Positions 11,610-63,243 of a DNA stretch of 64,000 nt are shown here, one piece after another. Both the position numbers and the translations under genes were made by a program. The stretch's first letter is position 1. The number at the start of each line of letters is the position of its first letter. The notes beneath the pieces are model-generated. The model had not been told where the DNA came from and did not search any database. It worked only from the letters and a program-made list of their open reading frames with translations. The stretch is from Polytrichum commune (lineage: Eukaryota > Streptophyta > Polytrichopsida > Polytrichales > Polytrichaceae), in NCBI GenBank assembly GCA_950295325.1, contig OX485803.1, forward strand, positions 55,999,554 through 56,063,553. The letters are read 5' to 3'.

Positions 11610-12173
11610 TCATGATTCTAAGTAAGTTGGGAGTTCATTGAGATGGGAGTTACATTCCATGTTACCGCGAGTTTTGGTATGACACTTGTGATTCTCAAAA
11701 CCACCACCCGGACTAGGACGCTTAAGGGTGGTGGGTTTGGCCTCATAGGTAGCCCAATCCATTGCATCCACTTCAAGCCCACAAAGAGAAACCCGCATAA
11801 GAGCATCAAGGGTCTTCAAGTTCAACCTATTGCGCAAGTGGCTTTTGATTGCACTTCGTTTGGAAAATCCTCTCTTACAAATAACTATACTTGATGGAAT
11901 GAGTATAATTTTTTGCCAAAGTTGCATAAGTTTAGGCCAATTTGTGTGCCATTCCAAATTGCTACCACATATGCGCCAAGCCTCAAATATCGTTTTGTTC
12001 TCACACTCATGTCGAAGTGTTTCCGTAAATTCCAAGAGTTCTCCCTTACACATGTCACTCTCTTCTTCAGTGTATTGAAACTTCAACAATATCCTTTCGA
12101 GCCACAATTCGGTATTTGTGATTCGGTCACTATCATTGCTTGGATAATTACGGACATAAACTCTCAAAGGTGA
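11610..12173 (-). pseudogene. hAT transposase, C-terminal fragment
   Basis: A 185-codon frame on the - strand ends with the hAT C-terminal dimerisation region: CKRGFSKRSAIKSHLRN, then LKTLDALMRVSLCGL. The pattern RGFS-x(5)-KS-x-LR-x(7)-TL-x-A-x-MRV is shared with the second hAT fragment at 27.9-28.6 kb. The family's usual Cys-Glu-Arg-Gly is Cys-Lys-Arg-Gly here. The N-terminal BED zinc finger and the catalytic region are absent, and no flanking inverted repeats were seen, so this is a transposon remnant rather than a host gene. Confidence 0.8.
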
Positions 12174-27702: not shown

Positions 27703-28810
27703 CAGGCCATAAATTTGACACCCTAGCCAAATTTCCAGGGGACACCCTGTCCCAAATTTTGGGTGTCCCAAGGACACCCTGCTCCAATTTTTGGGTGTCC
27801 TCATAAATTTCTCTTAAATTTTTTTTTTGGTCAAAATAGGTATAATTTTGAAAAATATATAATATCATTTCAAAATCTCAATTAAAAATCAAAAAAATCA
27901 CTACATATCATAACTTGCAATGCAAATCAAACCTACAAGCGGCGGCCTTTCATAGCACACCACTTTACCCATACTTGTTCAAAGTCAATGGCCTCTATGG
28001 GGTATTTTGCCATTGCAACTCTCATTTGTGCTTCCAAAGTCTCTAATACCAAACTACACCGTAAAGTAGATTTAACATGATTTTGAGTAGAAAATCCTCT
28101 CTCACAAGAAGCTGTACTAGCAGGAATTACAAGAACAACTTGCCACAACTTTGTCATATGAGGATATCTTCCAACATAGTCCAAATTGGAAGAATAAACC
28201 ATCCAAGCTTGGTGCATTTTAAGACCACCACATGAAATATGAAGTGTATCCAAAAAACCTCGAAGCTCTGATTTTAAACCACGCTCATCAAAAAGATTCC
28301 CTCCATTAGTGTAGAAGTGGTCAATGAAACTCTGAAGCCATAAACGAGCATTTCGATGAAGAAGTGTCAAGTCTGTTGAAAAACAGACAGGGCTAAATAG
28401 CTTAGCTGCATTGAAGAGCTTCAAATCAGGAAATCGTTGCTGCAATGATTCTATCACCTTAACCACATAGGCCTGTGCAATCACCTTGCACCCATGGAGG
28501 GTACCATCACCACCAAACTCAATTGCATGAGGCAATGGTGCATAATGCAATATATGTGAATGCACCACTCCTGTAGAGTCTTGAAAATGGATCTCACCAC
28601 CTCTAGAAATGTCCAAAATTCGTGCCACAAATTTGGTATCCGCTGATAGGCCCTACAAGTACAGGGGACACCCTGAATTTTTTTTGGGTGTAAAAAGGAC
28701 ACCCTTGTAGGATTTTTGGGTGTCCTCGGGGACATCCTGTTTGAGATTTGGGTGTCCTAGGACACTCTAGGAAGCAAAATACACCCCCAGGGTGTCAATT
28801 TTATGCCCTG
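27703..28810. mobile_element. Short hAT element with inverted repeats and 8-bp target duplication
   Basis: The left end CAGGCCATAAATTTGACACC and the complement of the right end, CAGGGCATAAAATTGACACC, are near-identical inverted repeats starting with the CAGGG-type hAT terminus. The flanking 8 bases are ctgagcag (27695-27702) and ctgagcaa (28811-28818), 7 of 8 identical, the hallmark of hAT insertion. Both ends carry subterminal arrays of ggacacc and gggtgtcc palindromes. The interior encodes only the C-terminal part of a transposase, so this is a deletion derivative of about 1.1 kb. Confidence 0.92.
27933..28628 (-). pseudogene. hAT transposase C-terminal fragment inside the short hAT element
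   Basis: A single uninterrupted frame of about 231 codons carries the end of the catalytic region and the C-terminal dimerisation domain. The domain is seen in WQVVLVIPASTASCERGFS, then VKSTLRCSLVLETLEAQMRV, close to residues 165-210. The N-terminal DNA-binding zinc finger and first catalytic Asp region are absent. No ATG opens the frame in a convincing context, so translation is uncertain. The lack of stops over 230 codons shows either recent origin or some constraint. It ends at TAG near 27933, well inside the element. Confidence 0.85.
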
Positions 28811-32781: not shown

Positions 32782-35776
32782 TTAGAAGGTTGATTCGATG
32801 ACTTCTGGTGAGAGTCCGGCTAGTTGCAAGGCGACCCGCCTCTTGCTGAGTCGCTCAGCGATGATGAAGGATAGTTCCAGTGCTTGGGAAGCATTGAGGC
32901 GGGGGTCGCAATGGGTGTGGTAGCGGGAGTTCAGATCCTCAAACGTCAAATTATTGCCTCCTCCCACGCACTCGGTCACATTTTGTCCCGTCATTTCCAG
33001 GTGCACACCACCGGCGTGGGTGCCTTCTTGCTCGTGCACATCGAAGAATGCCTTCACTTCGTCCTGTGTGTCACATTTCCCACGATGCTAAGAATCAGCT
33101 ATGGCGCATGTACACAGTACACTCATTCCACAACCACTTTCCTAACTTTTCGAGCGAGTTCTGCACCAGAAATGGATTGGAAGTATTCATGAGGGAGAGG
33201 TGTGTACAAAATTTACCATCAGAGAATTTTTCTCACCATAATCAATCACAGAGCCATTGCAGTTCCAACCCTACATGGTGAAACAGGGTTCATGGACATT
33301 TCTCAAATGGAGGTTTGAATTTTACACCATGATTAAAGGCGTCCAAGTACTCATGTGGTTTGTTAAATATTCACCATCAGAGGCATTTGTTCGCCACAAG
33401 CAATCACAGAACGTCACCACAAACTCCATGTGGTGAAACATTCTGTGAGCGATTGCAATTTGAGTTCTACATGGTGAACTTAGGATTCAAAGGAAGATCT
33501 CAAAAGGTTACGACAGGAGGTCTGAGTTGTAGAGCATGAAAGGCTTCCAAGCATTCATAAGGAATAGGTTTAAACAAAATTCACCATCAGAGGAGTTTGT
33601 TCGCCGCAAGTCATCACAGAACTTTATGTCTCGATCCATTCTGTAAACGATTGCAATTCGATCGTAAAACGGTGAAATTAGGGTTCGAGAAATTTGATGA
33701 TCGGAGGAGAGAAAGGAAGGGAAACTCGGTCATGAGCTTACCAGGATGGAATCAAAGGGCCGGGTCTTGAGGCCAGATGGAGCTTTGATGGTGTTGCCAT
33801 GCATGGGGTCACTCACCCATGTCACCACACATCCTGCCTGCCTTACCGCTCTAACCAAGGCGGGGAACTTCTCCCTCAGCTTGTCGGCACCCATACGCAC
33901 AATCACCGTCAACCTCCCAGGCTTGTTCTCAGGGTTAAGCATCTCACAGAGCGTCACCAGATCTTCAGGCTTCATTTTGTCACTCATTTTAACTCCCAAG
34001 GGGTTAGCAACGCCTCTCAAAAACTCAACATGTGCACCATCGAGCTGCCTTGTGCGCTCTCCGATCCAGAGCATGTGTGCAGAGCAGTCATACCACAACC
34101 CCGAGGTGGAGTCCTGGCGTGTGAAAGCTTGCTCGTAAGGGAGTAGCAGGCATTCATGTGAGGTGTAGAAATCGGTGGAGTTTGTCACGGGGTTATCGAT
34201 TTTGATCCCACATGCGGCCATGAATCCCAGGGCTTCGTCCACCTTTCGGGCTAACTCCCTGTACCGATCTCCTTGTGGACTGCTTGCGGCGAAGTCGAGA
34301 TTCCAGTTTGTGACTCTCTGCATGGCAGCAAACCCTCCGGTGGCGAAAGCTCGGAGCAAATTTAAAGTTGCTGCCGCCTGTGTGTATGCTCGCACCATGC
34401 GGTTTGGGTCTGGGATGCGAGCTTGCAGAGTTGGGAGGTCTGCGTTGATGTTGTCTCCTCTGTAGGATGGAAGCTCCACTCCGTTCACATTCTCTGTGTC
34501 TGCTGACCGGGGCTTCGCAAATTGTCCAGCCATCCTTCCAACCTAAATTTCCAGAGCCAGGTTAAGCATATGTTAGCATCATCATGAATGTCTTGTGCAA
34601 TACTTGCGGATTACAGGAAAGGATTCTTGAATATTCATTCTTGTAGAGTTATGTTTACTTATGTAACAACCGTAATTGTGGATTCGAGGAAAACTTTCTG
34701 GATTCTAGAATCAAGAAATCACTGCCTGTCTGTGTGGCGGTGGATTCTCTGCAGGTAGTCACGAAAAATGCAGGGGTTGCCGGATATGGTGGAAATGTCA
34801 GGATGATCATGTCTTGTGCAATTGTGGATTAGAGGGAAACATTCTTGTTTCAGCAGCATTCTTGATGTTTCAGGCGTAACTCCAGAATCAAGAAATTGGC
34901 TGTACGGTGGGATTCAATTGAGGATTCCAGGAATGCATTCTTGTTACAGCATTCTTGGTATTTCCGTCCCAGACTGTGTGGGGGTGATTTTGTTGCATGT
35001 AGTCACAAAATATACTTGCGGGGTAGAAGCTGGACATGGTGGCTTACTTTGACAACGGGCATTTGGCCACCGAACATGAGCACTGCACTCATCTGCAACA
35101 GAACACGGAATGTGTCCCTAATGTTGACGGCGTTGAACTCCTTGAAGCTCTCGGCACAGTCTCCTCCTTGGAGCAGGAACGCCCTGCCCATGGCGGCCTC
35201 AGCAAGCCTCTCCTCTAAGCTCCTTGCCTCTCCTGCGAACACAAGAGGCGGCAGGTTTGCAAGCGTCTTCTCCACCTCTGCAAGCTTCTCGGCGTCAGGG
35301 TAATTCGGCTGCTGGAGGGCCACCTTGTTCCTCCAGCTGCTTGTTGACCAATCTTTCTTTCTCCCTGGCAATACCCCTGCAAAATTCAAATGTTGCAATC
35401 CACTCATCACATCATGAGAACGTTTTTCACATGCGATCATATAACTAGTACATAATTAAATGACGTCGCACCGGTCATTAACTTCTCCATCATACACACG
35501 AGTCATTATAATTGCTGATCAAGAAGGACGACATACATCATCAACATTTCGACCATTCCATGTAATACCTGCTTTCTCCACAGTCGTGTGTTGTTCAACT
35601 CTTTTGAGAATCTCCGCGGCTTTGCTGGCCTGTGACACAATTGTTGTATTGCGCCGAACAAGTGACCTGGGTTGTCGATGATGCACCACCTGGCCGGGCC
35701 TCACGGAAGCCCCCAAGAAAGAGGTTTCCTGAGCAACCGCCATTAAGCTCATGTGACTTGCTAGCTGGGCCGCCAT
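32782..35776 (-). CDS. DHS: Class II DAHP synthase, plastidial, 4 exons
   Basis: 3-Deoxy-D-arabino-heptulosonate-7-phosphate synthase joins phosphoenolpyruvate and erythrose 4-phosphate, the first step of the shikimate pathway to aromatic amino acids. Exons (- strand): 35776-35569, 35376-35048, 34542-33742, 33063-32782. All introns are GT-AG, and 1620 nt give 539 residues. Residues 1 to about 65 are rich in Ser and Arg and poor in acids, as in a plastid transit peptide. The core shows GGDCAESF (Cys143), [20 protein letters not shown] (172-191), MHGNT (His427), [11 protein letters not shown] (Glu469) and [11 protein letters not shown] (Asp499). Cys, His, Glu and Asp are the metal ligands of class II enzymes, and the 42- and 30-residue spacings between the last three match the family. 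No defect is seen. A TTG upstream in frame was not preferred over the ATG at 35776. Introns 2 and 3 contain tandem repeats. Confidence 0.97.
33175..33700. repeat. Three diverged tandem units in DAHP synthase intron 3
   Basis: The block ttcaccatcagag, then ttgttcgcc, then caatcacagaa recurs near 33209, 33370 and 33578. Each is followed by a related stretch about 'cattctgtgagcgattgcaa'. The units are about 165-205 bp and fill most of the 678-nt intron. Confidence 0.8.
34576..35042. repeat. Tandem duplication in DAHP synthase intron 2
   Basis: Two units of about 220 bp share atgtcttgtgcaat (near 34588 and 34808), gaatcaagaaat, gtagtcacgaaaa/gtagtcacaaaat and the closing ggatatggtgg/ggacatggtgg. 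They fill nearly all of the 505-nt intron. Confidence 0.8.
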
Positions 35777-56373: not shown

Positions 56374-59300
56374 TTATGTAACGTGTTCCTTAGCTTCATA
56401 AATGAAGAGCTTCTTCCGTATCTTTGTGAAAGAGCTCGTCTTTACTCCACGAAACTCATTGGCAGATGGCCCTGACCTGATCGATTGTGTTGCTGCCTTC
56501 CTTATGTGCGCTACCGCCTTTGCATCCTCACTGCGTCCTCCCAAACCTGAAAAAACAATAGTGAAAAAACATTAGACCTTCTATGCAGGTGGCCAAGGTC
56601 TATTGCAACCAATTAACTAGAAACATCACTAGACATATGAGAGGTGAACAATTCAAAACCCATATCATTTAGTTTATCAATATGTTCAAATAATTCTCTG
56701 GTAATGATTTTAACAAGACAACTAACACTGCATGACCGTTTCACAGAAATTTTTGCAAATTTTTGGGCAAAATGTCCGTAACAAGATAATACAAACCTAT
56801 GTGGACTCAAAAATAGGGTAGACATTAGTGGCAACGAAGCACAACTTTGTTGAACCTTTGTGTGATCATTCATGCTTCAGGCAGATGGCAAGGAACATTT
56901 GATTAAGGTAAAGCAGAACCATGATACCACTCTACAAAGAAAGTAAATTTAGACTACAAAACCTGGTGGAAGAAAGCATACATTGCAAAGGGAAGGTAAG
57001 CACAAATTGGATGTGAATTGGATTGTGAAGGCAAAGTAGTAGTTGTAGCTGGAAATTATACAACAAACAGGAGTACATGGGGGTAGGAATAAGTGACAAG
57101 AACAAAGTGTGAATTGAAATGCTCACCAGATGGTGTAGAGAGCTTGTTCGATCTGGCTGGGGCAGAATGGGAAATTAATCTAGAATATTTGAACGATGAC
57201 CTCTGCTTCAGGCGCGGTGAATCCTCATCCAAGCTACTATTCGTCCCGGCTTCCGAAGTTGATGTTTGGTCTTGGCTGAGGGTAAAGATAGAATCCCTAT
57301 CTGAATGCTCATGCTCTGCTTCGTCCCGTGCTCTTGAGGGAACTACAGAATACAGCATAGCCAGTTAGAGAATTCAACAAGAGAAATAAATAACTTTCAA
57401 TCAGTTATACAGTGTCCACACATATGCTGGAAAAGTATCAAGTAGATATTAAAACAATTCTTCACCAGAAAAAAATTATACAATTCTTTGAAACCATGAA
57501 AAGTTCACAAAAAGTGTAGAAATGGATGAGATGAGCACCAGAAATCTGATTCCCCTCTCCATAGTTCTCGGTGACAAGTTTTGCGACTCGCGAATCATAC
57601 TCAACTTGCCTCACTGCCACATCATAAAAACCACACCAGTCAGTCAACACCTTCCAAAATGTTTTTGAAGAGTCAAAAGGAGCACAAAATCCTGGAGCAA
57701 TAACAACAAGCATCTGAGGGTGTAATTATATTAAATAGACAAGACATGAACTTACACTGATTGAAGAAACCAGTTCTTCCAAGTGACCTTGATCCCAGGT
57801 CCAACATAGCTGTCATTTCCGTGTCTCGCATCGATGCAAAATCAAGGTTCTCGGTGTCCAGCAGGATTCCAGCCAGCTGCAAGGAAGTGAATAATTTCAG
57901 TAAAGTAGAGCGTAGAGCCATCTCAAGTTCTGAACAACCATAGTATGCATTCGACAAGTTGAATACCAATGTAATTGCAGATATTAAGTTAGAAACAGCC
58001 TCTCACCAAAAGCGATTTTGTGTAATGTGGCTGCAATAAGGTAGGCGCTTCAGACACCAGTGCTTCTGCCAGAAGTGTACATACTGATCCCACCTGCTTG
58101 GAAAGAAAGAAATTTGATAGCCCAAACATCAGTTACTAAATGATTGACTCTCAGCTTGCTATATATCAGATTCAGGTTGAAAGAAAAAACATCAGAATGC
58201 TATTATAATATGGTAACAAGTAGCAAATTAAAGAAACCAATTTGCTGTAATGAATTTTTGGCTCTTGGATACAAAAGATAGGAAAGGTAATTACTTCATT
58301 TTTTGTAACAAGAACATCTTGTCCAACAATCCACATCTTGATGCGCCCTGCAGCCATCAAGCTTGATAACTCTATCTGCAAAACTCCCAATATGCAGAAA
58401 GGTTAAAAATTGGGCAAGCTAATCGCATTCTTTGTCAGCATATGTGTTTCTGTGTAGCAGCAGTTGACACAGTTAACAAAGAGCAGAGCAGCTCAAACCT
58501 ACACATATTCAGAAAATGCAATCCAGTCCTCGGATTGTCCAAACTACCAAATCACCACTCATCAAATATATCAATGAGCAGTGACCACCAGATTGAAGCG
58601 ACTTATCACCCAATTTCAACAATATAGCCCTATCTAGCCCTATTTAATATCCTGTGTCTGAAGTATCCCAATAAATTTTATTAGTATTGGCTCTTAAGCA
58701 TTACTTTACATTACACATTCATTAAAAATGCACTACAGTCTTTGGACTCTCCACATAACATTACTCAGCTGATGAGCTGTGATTAAGTCTAAAGCAGTGG
58801 GATTCCAGCATCCAGAATCTTTATTCTCGGATCTACTGCTGGACCAATGAACACAGCTCTTCAGCTGAGTAATGTTATGACCGAATTACCTCATCAAATA
58901 TATCAATGAGTAGTGATCACCAGATTACAGAGACTTATCACCCAATTCAACAATGTTACCCTAGCTGGCCCTATTCATATCCTGTGTCTGGAGTATCCCA
59001 CTAAATCTGATTAGAAATGGCTCTTAAGCCTTACTTCAAGTTTGCATTGACAAGTCTAGTTATGAGTTTGTCTACCACAGGTCCTGTGCAGTACCTCGTT
59101 TGCAAAGAGCAAGGATCCTGCATCAATTCCACAAACATCAAAAAGCCATGCTGCATCTTTGTGCTTGTGCATTAGATGCCTTGGAATATCAATCATGGGC
59201 ACTGCATGCCACGTGTCACTGGCCACTTTGCAGGTGGTGTTTTCCTGCATCCATGCATAGCACATTGCTGCCACCATGGAACTCACTTCTGCAAAGGCCC

Positions 59301-62300
59301 AAAAATATTTTGTCAGATATAAGATCTAAGACTATGACAGATGAAACATGAGTAACTCCAATGTTACAGCAGGAAGATATATTTCAAAGTGGGAGGGTTA
59401 GGAGTGGTACCAAGATCAGCTCCAGTTCCAGACATAACAATGCAGAAGCAATCAGTGTTCCCCTTCTCCAAACTGCTAAGGAGGCGCTTCTTTTGAGCTG
59501 TGAGGAAATTGTTCAACTGGTCTATGTCTCTGGAATGAAATTCAGAGTGCAAGGGCAAGCTACAAGGGGGAGCAGCAGCTTCTTCAACCACCGAATCAAG
59601 TTCAGGCTGCAAGTTTAGTGGAAAGGGACCATCCCAATCAACCTCCTCCATGGACTGAGAGCTTTTGTTCACACTATTTCCACTAAAACTTGGGCTGTCC
59701 ACACTCCGGAAGCTCCCATGGCTTCTTGTCGGGCTATCCACGCTCCGGAAGCTCCCACAACAATCCTCAAAAATCTCTCCCTCTGAACATCGAAGCGGGT
59801 CGCCTCGAGATATACTTGTTGATGCTTTTGGTTCAGGTGGAATAGCCACCACTCCCAGCTCCCCAGATATCATGGTGGGCTCATTACCACCCATGGACAC
59901 ACGCAGTCTTCGTGGTGGTACGAGCAACTCTTGGGCAGCTCGAGTTGGAAGACGCGGATGACTTGGGGTAAAAGGTGTCACGTCCGAAGCAGTTGAACCT
60001 GCAGCAACACAGCATCAGGAGTACCATTGATCAAACCTAGGGCCACAAATCTCATTACAATTTAGGTGACACATCATCAACACCCCGTAGCGAGGTGGTA
60101 ATACCTTTTCATCTTGTACAGATTACTTGAGGAATCAATCAAAGGATGGTAGCCATCTCCTTATTGTTGTTAAGGTTCCTAGCAAAATCAAAGAAATAAG
60201 ATCTACAACATACTTAAATGTATGGCAACGTGGCCATCTGGTAGTTGCAAACTGAAGTGATGAATAATATCACACACGAACAACATCACAGAGCAGTGTA
60301 GTAAGCACTTTCTATACCCCTTCCATCATGTGCAGTCCAATTCAAAAGTCAAAAATCACGGGCTATCCTAATGATAAGTATATTATTGTTGTCAGTAAGG
60401 TTCACAGCAAAACCATGGAATGTACAAGCATTCTTCAATGTAAGGCAACATGGCCAACTGATAGTTACAAGAATGATAAAGGAGGAGTACAGAGGAAGTG
60501 GTGACATACATGAACCCCATGATAAGACTCTTCTATGCTTCGGCGTCCCCAGCTTCTCAGTGCTGCCCATACTGGAGAAGCGATCAGACTTGACAACAAA
60601 GGAGTCACAAGCATCACTCATGATTTCTGAAGTAGGGGACTTGCATTCGATTGGATCGGCCAAGCGAGACTTCTTGTTCAATGTGTTAGAATTTCCCTTG
60701 CCAACCGTCTTTGTGCCCTTAGAACTTGTCTTGGAACCCCATCTCCACTTGAAAACCCAGCGTGAACCACTCTTCTTCTCTGGAGTGTCATCAACCAACG
60801 TGTTGCCTTCTTGTTTCCGGGCACTGGGATAGGAGGTTTCCAGCTTTCTGGGTTCCACAGTTTTTGCAAACTTGTGCCGTTGCAAAGCTGTGTTGTCGGA
60901 AACTGCGCTCATGCTCGACGTTTTCGTAAGTTTTCGAGATGATCCAGCACTGTCTTTACCTGCACATGCTTCCAGTTTGTGTAAGAAAAGAGGAATCTTC
61001 TCAACAATACCCAAATCTTCTCAACACCAAAACTCTTCCAGAGTCATCAAATCTCAACTTCCGTCATCAAACATCGAAAGCCTCCCAAACTAAGTCTTTC
61101 TAGTGGACAACCCACAACTTTCATTTCTGCAAAAAAACTCAATTGTGGAGGATGTAATCTGTAACCCAAGCGAAGGAAGAAGATCACAGAGTCCAGTTAA
61201 AACGCACCTGATTTTGTGTCGGAGCTCCACCCGCCGAGCTTCAATTTCCTCATAAACTTCGATGTCCTGGACTCCACCGAAACACAACGAGGAGAAGACG
61301 GCACCGAAACAGGGGCACGGACAACGTCACCGTTCTCCTTCACAACATCATAAGTTGGCACCGAAACAGGGGCACAGACAACGTCACCATCCTCCTCCAC
61401 AACATCATTAGTTGGCACCGCTCTTGACGATCCACCTAACATAGAATGCTTACTCAAACCACCACTCACCACATCTTCTTCATCACCACCACTACACTTG
61501 AGTTTCGGTTTTCCAACTTTGATTTGAGCCAAATTGGTAGTGTTCCCTGGAAAAATCTCCTCTTTCGGAAGCAAAACCTCCAAAGGTTTCTTCCCTACTA
61601 CGATGACCTTCGTATCCTCCAAAGCCATCACCGTCACCTTCGAATCCTCAGGTCCCTCGAACAGTGGAAACTTCGGCACAGACACGCATCGAAACGACCG
61701 CTGGGAGCTGCGCCTCGAAGAACCTAACCCATCCGATTTTCTCAAGCAAGCTTCAGAAGAGTTAACCTTGGGGCTCTCAGTTCTGGCTTCTCGAGGAGTC
61801 CAGAACATCTGCCTTTGCAGAACTTCCAGGGAGTGCACTCTTGCGGATCCTGGGGCTTGGGCCTCCCCCAACAGAAATTCTTGGCTTACAGTTGACAGTC
61901 CCACTATTTGGGGTGAAGCTTCGGTGTCTGGAGTGGTGCCTGCATCCGGTGTAACATCCACTGTCATGCGTTTGGTGCGTCGTCGTGACTCTCCCACCCG
62001 TGACGAGCTTCGTGTCTCGCTGGTTATGAGCGCTGACCTTGACGCGTTCGGTGAGCTTGGTGAATCCAGTGGAGGAGGTTGGGGCTTCGAGGAGGGTTCG
62101 CTGTTCTTTATTGTGGTGGTGATGCTATCTAAGTTGAACTTCCAGGGTAAGGAGAAGCTCGAAAATGAGGAGCCTCGTTGTAGGTGAGGCTGCTTCGTGG
62201 GGTTCTGATGATCCTTCGAACCTAGTTGCCATTGGATGTTGAAGTTGGCTATGGTGGCGGGAACCTGCATTCAACAATTTCCAGATTCACGTCAAGAAAT

Positions 62301-63243
62301 CGTGAAGAGCACCAAGAGAAGTAGCCGAGGACACCCCTGAAATTGCTGCATTATGGTACTTGAAATTACCAGTTCAGTGAATGTACCATGGTGCGGAAAT
62401 TTTAGCTGCACCATCTTCAAAGCTTATGTTAAGCTTTGTCACTCGAACATTTTATGCGGAGTAATGAGGCAGCACCACATGGTAGGGGGAACGATTAAGT
62501 CGAGTAGTGAAAGAGTGAACTTGAGGATTTCAGTATGCATTTTCTCGGCTCTCAAGTCCTCAATCGTGAAGAAATGACGTGATTGTTGACTTCAGCAATT
62601 GCTCTCCGCAACATTCACCAATGCAAATCGAGAGACATTTCTCAATGAACACTGGTAGGATTAAGAATGGATGGGCTACCTACTTACCTTGAGCTACCTA
62701 TCTGGCTGATCACATTTCAAGACAACCCGATTATTTATTTGCGAATCGCGTGTCACACATTGCGGATGATCAGAATGTCCACATTCAGTACAACATCCTC
62801 TGTTCTACCTCTAAAGCCCTGTCGGACTTTGTTTAAGCTGGACTTCAAGATTCAACACATTCTTGTGACAATGGATCCCCCCATTCTGAATCAAGAAACA
62901 TTTGAAATTGTCCCTAATTCCACCTCTGTCCGAACCTATATATATCAAATACAACTCGTACCGGCTTGAGAGAATGCAGAGCACGATTCGTCCGCAAGGA
63001 TTTCGTACCTTCCAACCAACATCCTCCTCGCAGTCCTTCCTCTCAAGATCCACACCGTTGAACCCAGACCAACTCTGAGGAGGAAGAAGGAAAGCATAAG
63101 GGGACGAGGAAGAAACCCACCTGGTCTATTTTGGTGGCCAAGCTGTTGGACAGCTCCACAGCCGAAGTCCACCAGTTGGAATCACGTGAGCGCCATGACA
63201 AAGATTTCCCATTCCCACACCTAGCAGCAGTCTCCCCTGTCAT
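56374..63243 (-). CDS. Prune-like DHH-superfamily protein with lost DHH motif, 12 exons
   Basis: Exons (- strand): 63243-63121, 63074-63009, 62264-61208, 60959-60510, 59998-59411, 59288-59095, 58375-58295, 58093-58007, 57876-57756, 57613-57539, 57342-57127, 56546-56374. All joins are GT-AG and 3231 nt give 1076 residues. Residues 1-700 are Ser/Pro/Lys-rich and probably disordered. About 720-925 align by eye with the DHH phosphoesterase core of Prune exopolyphosphatases: SGTGADLE at 755-762, GIDAGSLLF, then IVGQDVL where Prune has VDHH (residues 843-846), VGSVCTLLAEAL, and GILLDTENLD (Asp889). The DHH motif and second Asp of D-x-D are replaced, so it should not be an active hydrolase. I recall similar Arabidopsis proteins under a 'nucleolar gar2-like' label, but cannot confirm this. 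The N-terminal two exons are less certain: the alternative start is ATG at 62270, preceded directly by an in-frame TGA. Confidence 0.8.
58556..59042. repeat. Direct duplication around a hairpin in intron 6 of the Prune-like gene
   Basis: Two copies of about 155 bp (58556-58711 and 58881-59042) share catcaaatatatcaatgag, cttatcacccaatt and atcctgtgtctg. Between them lies an inverted repeat with 28-bp arms at 58754-58781 and 58852-58879, 27 of 28 pairing (cataacattactcagctgat on the left). All of it is intronic. Confidence 0.88.
61296..61410 (-). repeat. 57-bp in-frame duplication in exon 3 of the Prune-like gene
   Basis: Two adjacent 19-residue units, VPTNDVVEEDGDVVCAPVS and VPTYDVVKENGDVVRAPVS, occupy about residues 346-383. 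They lie in the disordered N-terminal region, and both stay in frame. Confidence 0.92.

Follow-up and report, generated by a model that had tools for sequence, protein, structure and literature searches.

Structure of the locus

Gene A was located on the minus strand of Polytrichum commune contig OX485803.1 (GCA_950295325.1), with its start at position 63243 and the end of its stop codon at 56374 of the window, which here means the whole 64,000-nucleotide stretch that was analysed. The same bounds and strand had been given in an earlier note made from the sequence, and they were unchanged in the rebuilt model. A scripted splice-site trial gave a predicted product of 1,052 amino acids from 11 coding exons without an internal stop (Table 1). 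The earlier description of an open, multi-exon spliced protein therefore held, while its size of 1,076 residues in 12 exons was revised. All ten introns were GT-AG, several with weak donors such as GTTCAT and GTGCTC, and the exon 3 donor was ambiguous by 6 bases (two residues). An exon starting at 57713 was rejected as it required a non-GT donor, and exon 9 as listed in Table 1 was taken instead. The idea for this exon came in part from an angiosperm protein that we take to be a homologue, and the exon is supported by its reading frame, by paralogue B (described below), which shows the same acceptor context, and by the longer alignment to human PRUNE1 that it allows.

Within exon 2, at window positions 61300-61420, a unit of 57 bases was repeated in tandem (2.1 copies, 92% match), and the alignment of paralogue B had a gap across much of it. 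Elsewhere in the window, a class-II DAHP synthase gene was recognised in pieces (33730-35455, minus strand, at least two exons), along with two hAT transposase remnants with a C-terminal dimerisation region (11610-12173 and 27933-28652). Taken with the intron-rich genes, these neighbours point to a plant.

Table 1. Features of the gene A model in window coordinates
Feature	Position	Strand	Basis
Coding exon 1, start codon	63121..63243	-	Splice model
Coding exon 2, Ser-rich N-terminal arm; LPWKF and SSRRSS common to paralogue B	61208..62264	-	Splice model and A-B comparison
Coding exon 3, N-terminal arm, SRWxFKWxWGS common to paralogue B; alternative end 60510	60516..60959	-	
Coding exon 4, which carries GSFRSVDSP repeats and the beginning of the DHH-like domain, with motif I to ADL	59411..59998	-	
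D-L-E codons, spanning the exon 4/5 junction	59420-59411 + 59288-59287	-	
Coding exon 5, DHH-like domain; length of 194 bases common to the three paralogues	59095..59288	-	
Coding exon 6, degenerate motif II; terminates at the deletion scar (TKNE / VGS)	58295..58375	-	
GQD codons replacing Prune Asp106-His107-His108	58316..58324	-	PRUNE1 alignment
Intron 6, 201 bases, site of the missing motif III segment	58094..58294	-	
Coding exon 7, VGSVCTLLAE, aligned to Prune VGSCATLVTE	58007..58093	-	
Coding exon 8, motif IV GILLDTENLD	57756..57876	-	
Asp codon matching PRUNE1 Asp179; retained by each of the three paralogues	57856..57858	-	
Coding exon 9, end of DHH-like domain (LRQVEYDSRVAKLVTENYGEG); same acceptor context in paralogue B, exon not located in C	57539..57613	-	
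Coding exon 10, C-terminal tail in place of Prune DHHA2	57127..57342	-	
Coding exon 11, stop codon	56374..56546	-	

Similarity of the core to Prune and PPX1

The DHH-like domain of A, at residues of about 724-921, was a homologue of Prune's N-terminal DHH domain. A Prune-like block had previously been placed at residues 720-925, and the block start at about 724 and the end of the PRUNE1 alignment at about 921 agree with that placement. BLASTP with human PRUNE1 as the sole database gave 52.4 bits for A (2e-12), 53.1 bits for B (1e-12) and 42.4 bits for C (4e-9), the PRUNE1 sequence used agreeing with the published one at four residues checked. The A alignment was collinear across PRUNE1 residues 20-238, with 57 of 228 aligned columns identical (25%). 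A profile of the three paralogues scored 44.1 bits on PRUNE1 residues 1-215, the best of 5,000 shuffles reaching 7.2. When the same profile was compared with 177,635 PDB sequences, yeast PPX1 was the top match (E 0.0021) and the next was a carbonic anhydrase-like chain (E 0.57), and the core of A alone, in a query with four wrong N-terminal residues, matched yeast PPX1 only (E 0.12).

A comparison by hhalign with a PPX1/pyrophosphatase profile gave 74% probability, and 1.4% for the reversed control. This profile comprised PPX1, PpaC and 23 of the 24 loci that were confirmed among 454 candidates when bacterial and archaeal genomes were searched with PPX1 and PpaC; locus L016 was left out, its longest open frame of 238 amino acids falling below the cut of 280. 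The profile proteins were the longest ATG open frames; for L023 and L029 the frame chosen may belong to another gene. The hhalign alignment set the GQD region of A beyond motif II, while in the alignments to PRUNE1 by BLAST and HMM, GQD fell ungapped on motif II. An alignment with PPX1 made by MAFFT misplaced the segment after the deletion, and the BLAST and HMM alignments were preferred.

No Pfam match, including DHH and DHHA1, was found at E values up to 10 in the 1,027-residue model of A without exon 9. The three cores likewise gave no DHH match, the sole match being a sub-threshold CheB_methylest (0.056) in one of the three. Searches with the three-paralogue alignment gave 49 candidate stretches in bacterial and archaeal genomes and 225 in viral contigs, none of which was confirmed, as was also the case for the 23 candidates found in viral contigs with PPX1. 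The PPX1 search of plasmids matched 68 records.

Active-site motifs

Motif I of the Prune/PPX1 exopolyphosphatases contains two Asp residues. An Asn in motif I has been described for exopolyphosphatases, with DHH as motif II and DHR as motif III of all prunes (PMC3022644). Elsewhere in the Prune/PPX1 group, motif II may read DHN and motif III DHH. At motif I the three paralogues read GTGADLE (A), GTDIE (B) and GAGSGM (C), none of which has the Prune/PPX1 form; the Asn typical of exopolyphosphatases was gone, and in copy C the motif I Asp was gone as well. Asp28 was kept in A, and in B it was kept only if a two-residue alignment gap is right, ungapped BLAST setting Asp28 elsewhere. The position of PRUNE1 Asp30 was occupied by Glu in A, which bears out the earlier reading of D-L-E in place of D-L-D. 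This change alone is no proof of lost activity, because the PRUNE1 D30N variant was described as having an exopolyphosphatase kcat/Km above that of the wild type (PMC5382943).

Motif II was GQD in A, GKD in B and GLD in C, so that neither DHH nor DHN was present in any of the three paralogues. The substitution of VGQD for VDHH, also noted earlier, was recovered in the BLAST and HMM alignments, which set GQD on PRUNE1 Asp106-His107-His108. Relative to PRUNE1, A lacked 29 residues in the stretch leading from motif II to the conserved VGS, among them Asp126-His127-Arg128 of motif III. This gap falls on the exon 6/7 junction, and the motif III segment was absent from all three paralogues. There was no DHH, DHR or DHN in the forward frames of the ten introns of A (three frames for intron 6) or in those of the scar-site introns of B and C; a single DHR lay next to a stop in the first tested intron of B, a long way upstream. 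The DHHA2 domain was not detected in A, where the 1,027-residue model gave no Pfam match to E 10 and the PRUNE1 alignment stopped at residue 238. In the predicted protein, the active-site loss in A is greater than first described, as it takes in the motif III segment as well, and DHHA2 was undetected.

Asp179, the motif IV residue, was kept in all three paralogues. Six Asp and His residues were invariant in the three cores (H80, D97, D108, D137, D180 and D191, numbered as in alignment A1), and weak metal or ligand binding may therefore persist.

Comparison with known DHH proteins

Human PRUNE1, of the Prune branch of DHH subfamily 2, shares with A a collinear N-terminal domain and Asp179, and A is ungapped from PRUNE1 LIFRDEI through motif II. 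In A, by contrast, GQD stands for DHH, the 29-residue gap removes motif III, Asp30 is replaced by Glu, DHHA2 was undetected, and the protein carries a long N-terminal arm as well as a distinct tail. Yeast PPX1 (PDB 2qb6) was the best PDB match, and a second, non-significant stretch of that match paired motif IV, LLMGAILIDTSNM with LLLAGILLDTENL. The PPX1 sequence differs in having VDNN as motif II and IDHH as motif III, and the PPX1 group is described as having the DHHA2 domain (PMC3022644, PMC3307487) that was undetected in A. CDC45 and inactivated archaeal RecJ homologues are described as having apparently non-catalytic DHH domains in the replication machinery (PMC3307487); they belong to the RecJ/DHHA1 clade, however, and their likeness to A is one of description only. 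Human PRUNE2, another member of the Prune family with a multi-domain build, differs in being described with DHHA2 and a BNIP2/SEC14-like part (PMC10225987), and in A no DHHA2 was detected.

Paralogues and constraint

A search of the genome (407.8 Mb, 64 contigs) gave 14 matches, all of them within gene A and two paralogues. Both paralogues lie on contig C4, with B at about 5.367 Mb on the plus strand and C at about 25.157 Mb on the minus strand. Core identity to A was 70% for B and 49% for C. The deletion scar TKNE-VGS was identical in the three genes, and exons 5-8 were 194, 81, 87 and 121 bases long in A and B and 194, 84, 87 and 121 in C. The reading was open across the 11 exons of A, nine joined exons of B, and part of exon 4 with exons 5-8 of C. 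Since all three paralogues share the motif losses and the scar and have nearly the same exon lengths, the loss most simply predates the duplications. A local defect, which the earlier note had named as an outcome that would count against its reading, is contradicted in this genome by two diverged paralogues that share both losses.

Substitution rates were estimated by the NG86 method. The A-B core had a dN of 0.170 and a dS of 1.65, for a dN/dS of about 0.1 that is rough as dS is near saturation. The N-terminal arm had a dN of 0.521 and a dS of 1.81 between A and B, and the tail a dN of 0.33. For the A-C core the values were 0.42 and 2.18, the latter near saturation, and B-C was not computable. 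The low core dN relative to dS indicates that the core has been constrained despite missing motifs II and III. Among the three paralogues 93 of 209 gap-free core columns were invariant, and the scar window LVTKNEVGSVCTLLAE, with 13 of 16 positions invariant, was tied with one other window as the most invariant.

Terminal arms

The core of A is flanked by an N-terminal arm of 696 residues and a C-terminal tail of 133, with Ser contents of 16% and 18%, respectively. Disorder-type residues made up 68% of each arm and 51% of the core. Seventeen SP/TP sites were present, fifteen in the N-terminal arm and two in the tail, with none in the core. Short islands were shared by the arms of A and B, including LPWKF, SSRRSS, SRWxFKWxWGS, KSDR, the GSFRSV repeats and SMEExxWD, with SLDExSPRL in the tail.

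Prune and polyphosphate genes

Angiosperm proteins with a segment similar to that containing GQD exist. Searches of the P. commune genome for a catalytic Prune with PF01368, PF02833 and PRUNE1 residues 1-370 gave no match, and copies A, B and C were missed too. These searches are accordingly weak, as is further suggested by the five DHH-domain proteins counted in Arabidopsis (PMC6973038), and a catalytic Prune may well be present elsewhere in the genome. For yeast PPX1 and H-prune, the same plant review lists Arabidopsis matches by domain only, such as At1g53345, and none by sequence (PMC6973038). That part of the source fits with there being no catalytic Prune in Arabidopsis and lends no support to a recognisable Prune-like protein there. 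Two reports mention plant genes under the names exopolyphosphatase PRUNE1-like or PRUNE/PPX1, in passages that give no motif details (PMC11305583, PMC12317545), one of them a potato phosphorus-efficiency study with a PRUNE/PPX1-named gene as a candidate (PMC12317545). No plant Prune pseudoenzyme was described among the matches listed in a search of the full-text literature, a body from which subscription papers are largely absent.

Sequence related to polyphosphate metabolism was also observed in the genome. The bacterial-type polyphosphate kinase PPK1 was represented by three collinear pieces (G000:C5:17879551-17881459), multi-exon and two of them above the cut-off, with a best E value of 6.4e-14; PPK1 has been reported in the moss Physcomitrella and in few other eukaryotes (PMC3680246), which would be in keeping with a moss. 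A Ppx-GppA sequence was found on contig C6 (6.6e-18). Further Ppx-GppA matches on two other contigs (G000:C2:68515308-68515653 and C3:6775919-6776264) had identical scores and lengths, and the stronger match on each contig contained one TAA, as if copied recently.

Interpretation

Taken on its sequence features, gene A is probably an old, selected pseudoenzyme that was derived from a Prune-type DHH exopolyphosphatase and that would act as a docking domain between long Ser-rich arms. A pseudoenzyme had been proposed at the outset, and it is supported by significant Prune homology, the disappearance of motifs II and III, and the same losses in two diverged paralogues; GQD itself did not prove fixed, as it varies among GQD, GKD and GLD within the genome. 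The N-terminal DHH domain, presumably with its DHH fold, would have been retained from a Prune-type ancestor while the metal centre was dismantled by the change of motif II from DHH to G-x-D and the loss of the motif III segment at an exon junction, with no DHHA2 lobe detected to close the active site. These losses would have come before the duplications that gave rise to the three paralogues, with purifying selection acting on the domain since. A two-metal centre would then be unable to form and catalysis would be absent. The domain may instead serve as a protein- or ligand-docking module between the arms, whose short conserved motifs may be recruited or phosphorylated and so provide regulation. 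PRUNE1 is described as having non-catalytic partners such as tubulin (PMC5382943), so that a scaffold role is plausible by analogy.

The closest competing explanation, although a rather unlikely one, is that the domain binds polyphosphate, a nucleotide or phosphate without catalysis and signals through the arms as a sensor. Asp179 and its neighbouring motif IV residues are invariant in all three copies, and the PPK1-type and Ppx-GppA-type sequence suggests that polyphosphate may exist in the plant; such binding would have to be achieved with motif III missing, DHHA2 undetected and, in C, no motif I Asp. It could also be that the active site was rebuilt and the protein is a genuine enzyme acting on a new substrate. 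This would account for the strong conservation of the loop GxDxLxTKNEVGS and for the six invariant Asp and His residues, yet we regard it as improbable given that Asp-His-His of motif II and the entire motif III are gone.

Two further readings are both very improbable. Lost motif residues, some weak donors and a model made from sequence alone are what a decaying pseudogene copy or a wrong gene model would produce, but A, B and C are open across their modelled exons, the dN/dS of the A-B core is about 0.1, and B and C share the changes. Similarly slight is the likelihood that the resemblance to Prune arose by chance with no common fold: it would explain the missing Pfam match to DHH, and against it stand the PPX1 match at E 0.0021, the PRUNE1 BLASTP scores and both the shuffle and reversed-profile controls.

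The selected pseudoenzyme that we favour may bear on land plants more widely. It is possible, though we hold this only tentatively and think it doubtful, that in land plants catalytic Prune gave way to an ancient family of motif-III-deleted pseudoenzymes, acting as scaffolds or as polyphosphate or nucleotide sensors, and that plant PRUNE1-like genes are not polyphosphatases. Plant genes named PRUNE or PPX1 should not be taken as enzymes on their names. The RecJ/CDC45 clade is described as containing inactivated DHH domains that became components of the replication machinery (PMC3307487), and an inactive DHH domain derived from Prune, with the motif III segment cleanly missing and with three diverged versions in one genome, would add a separate, second example.
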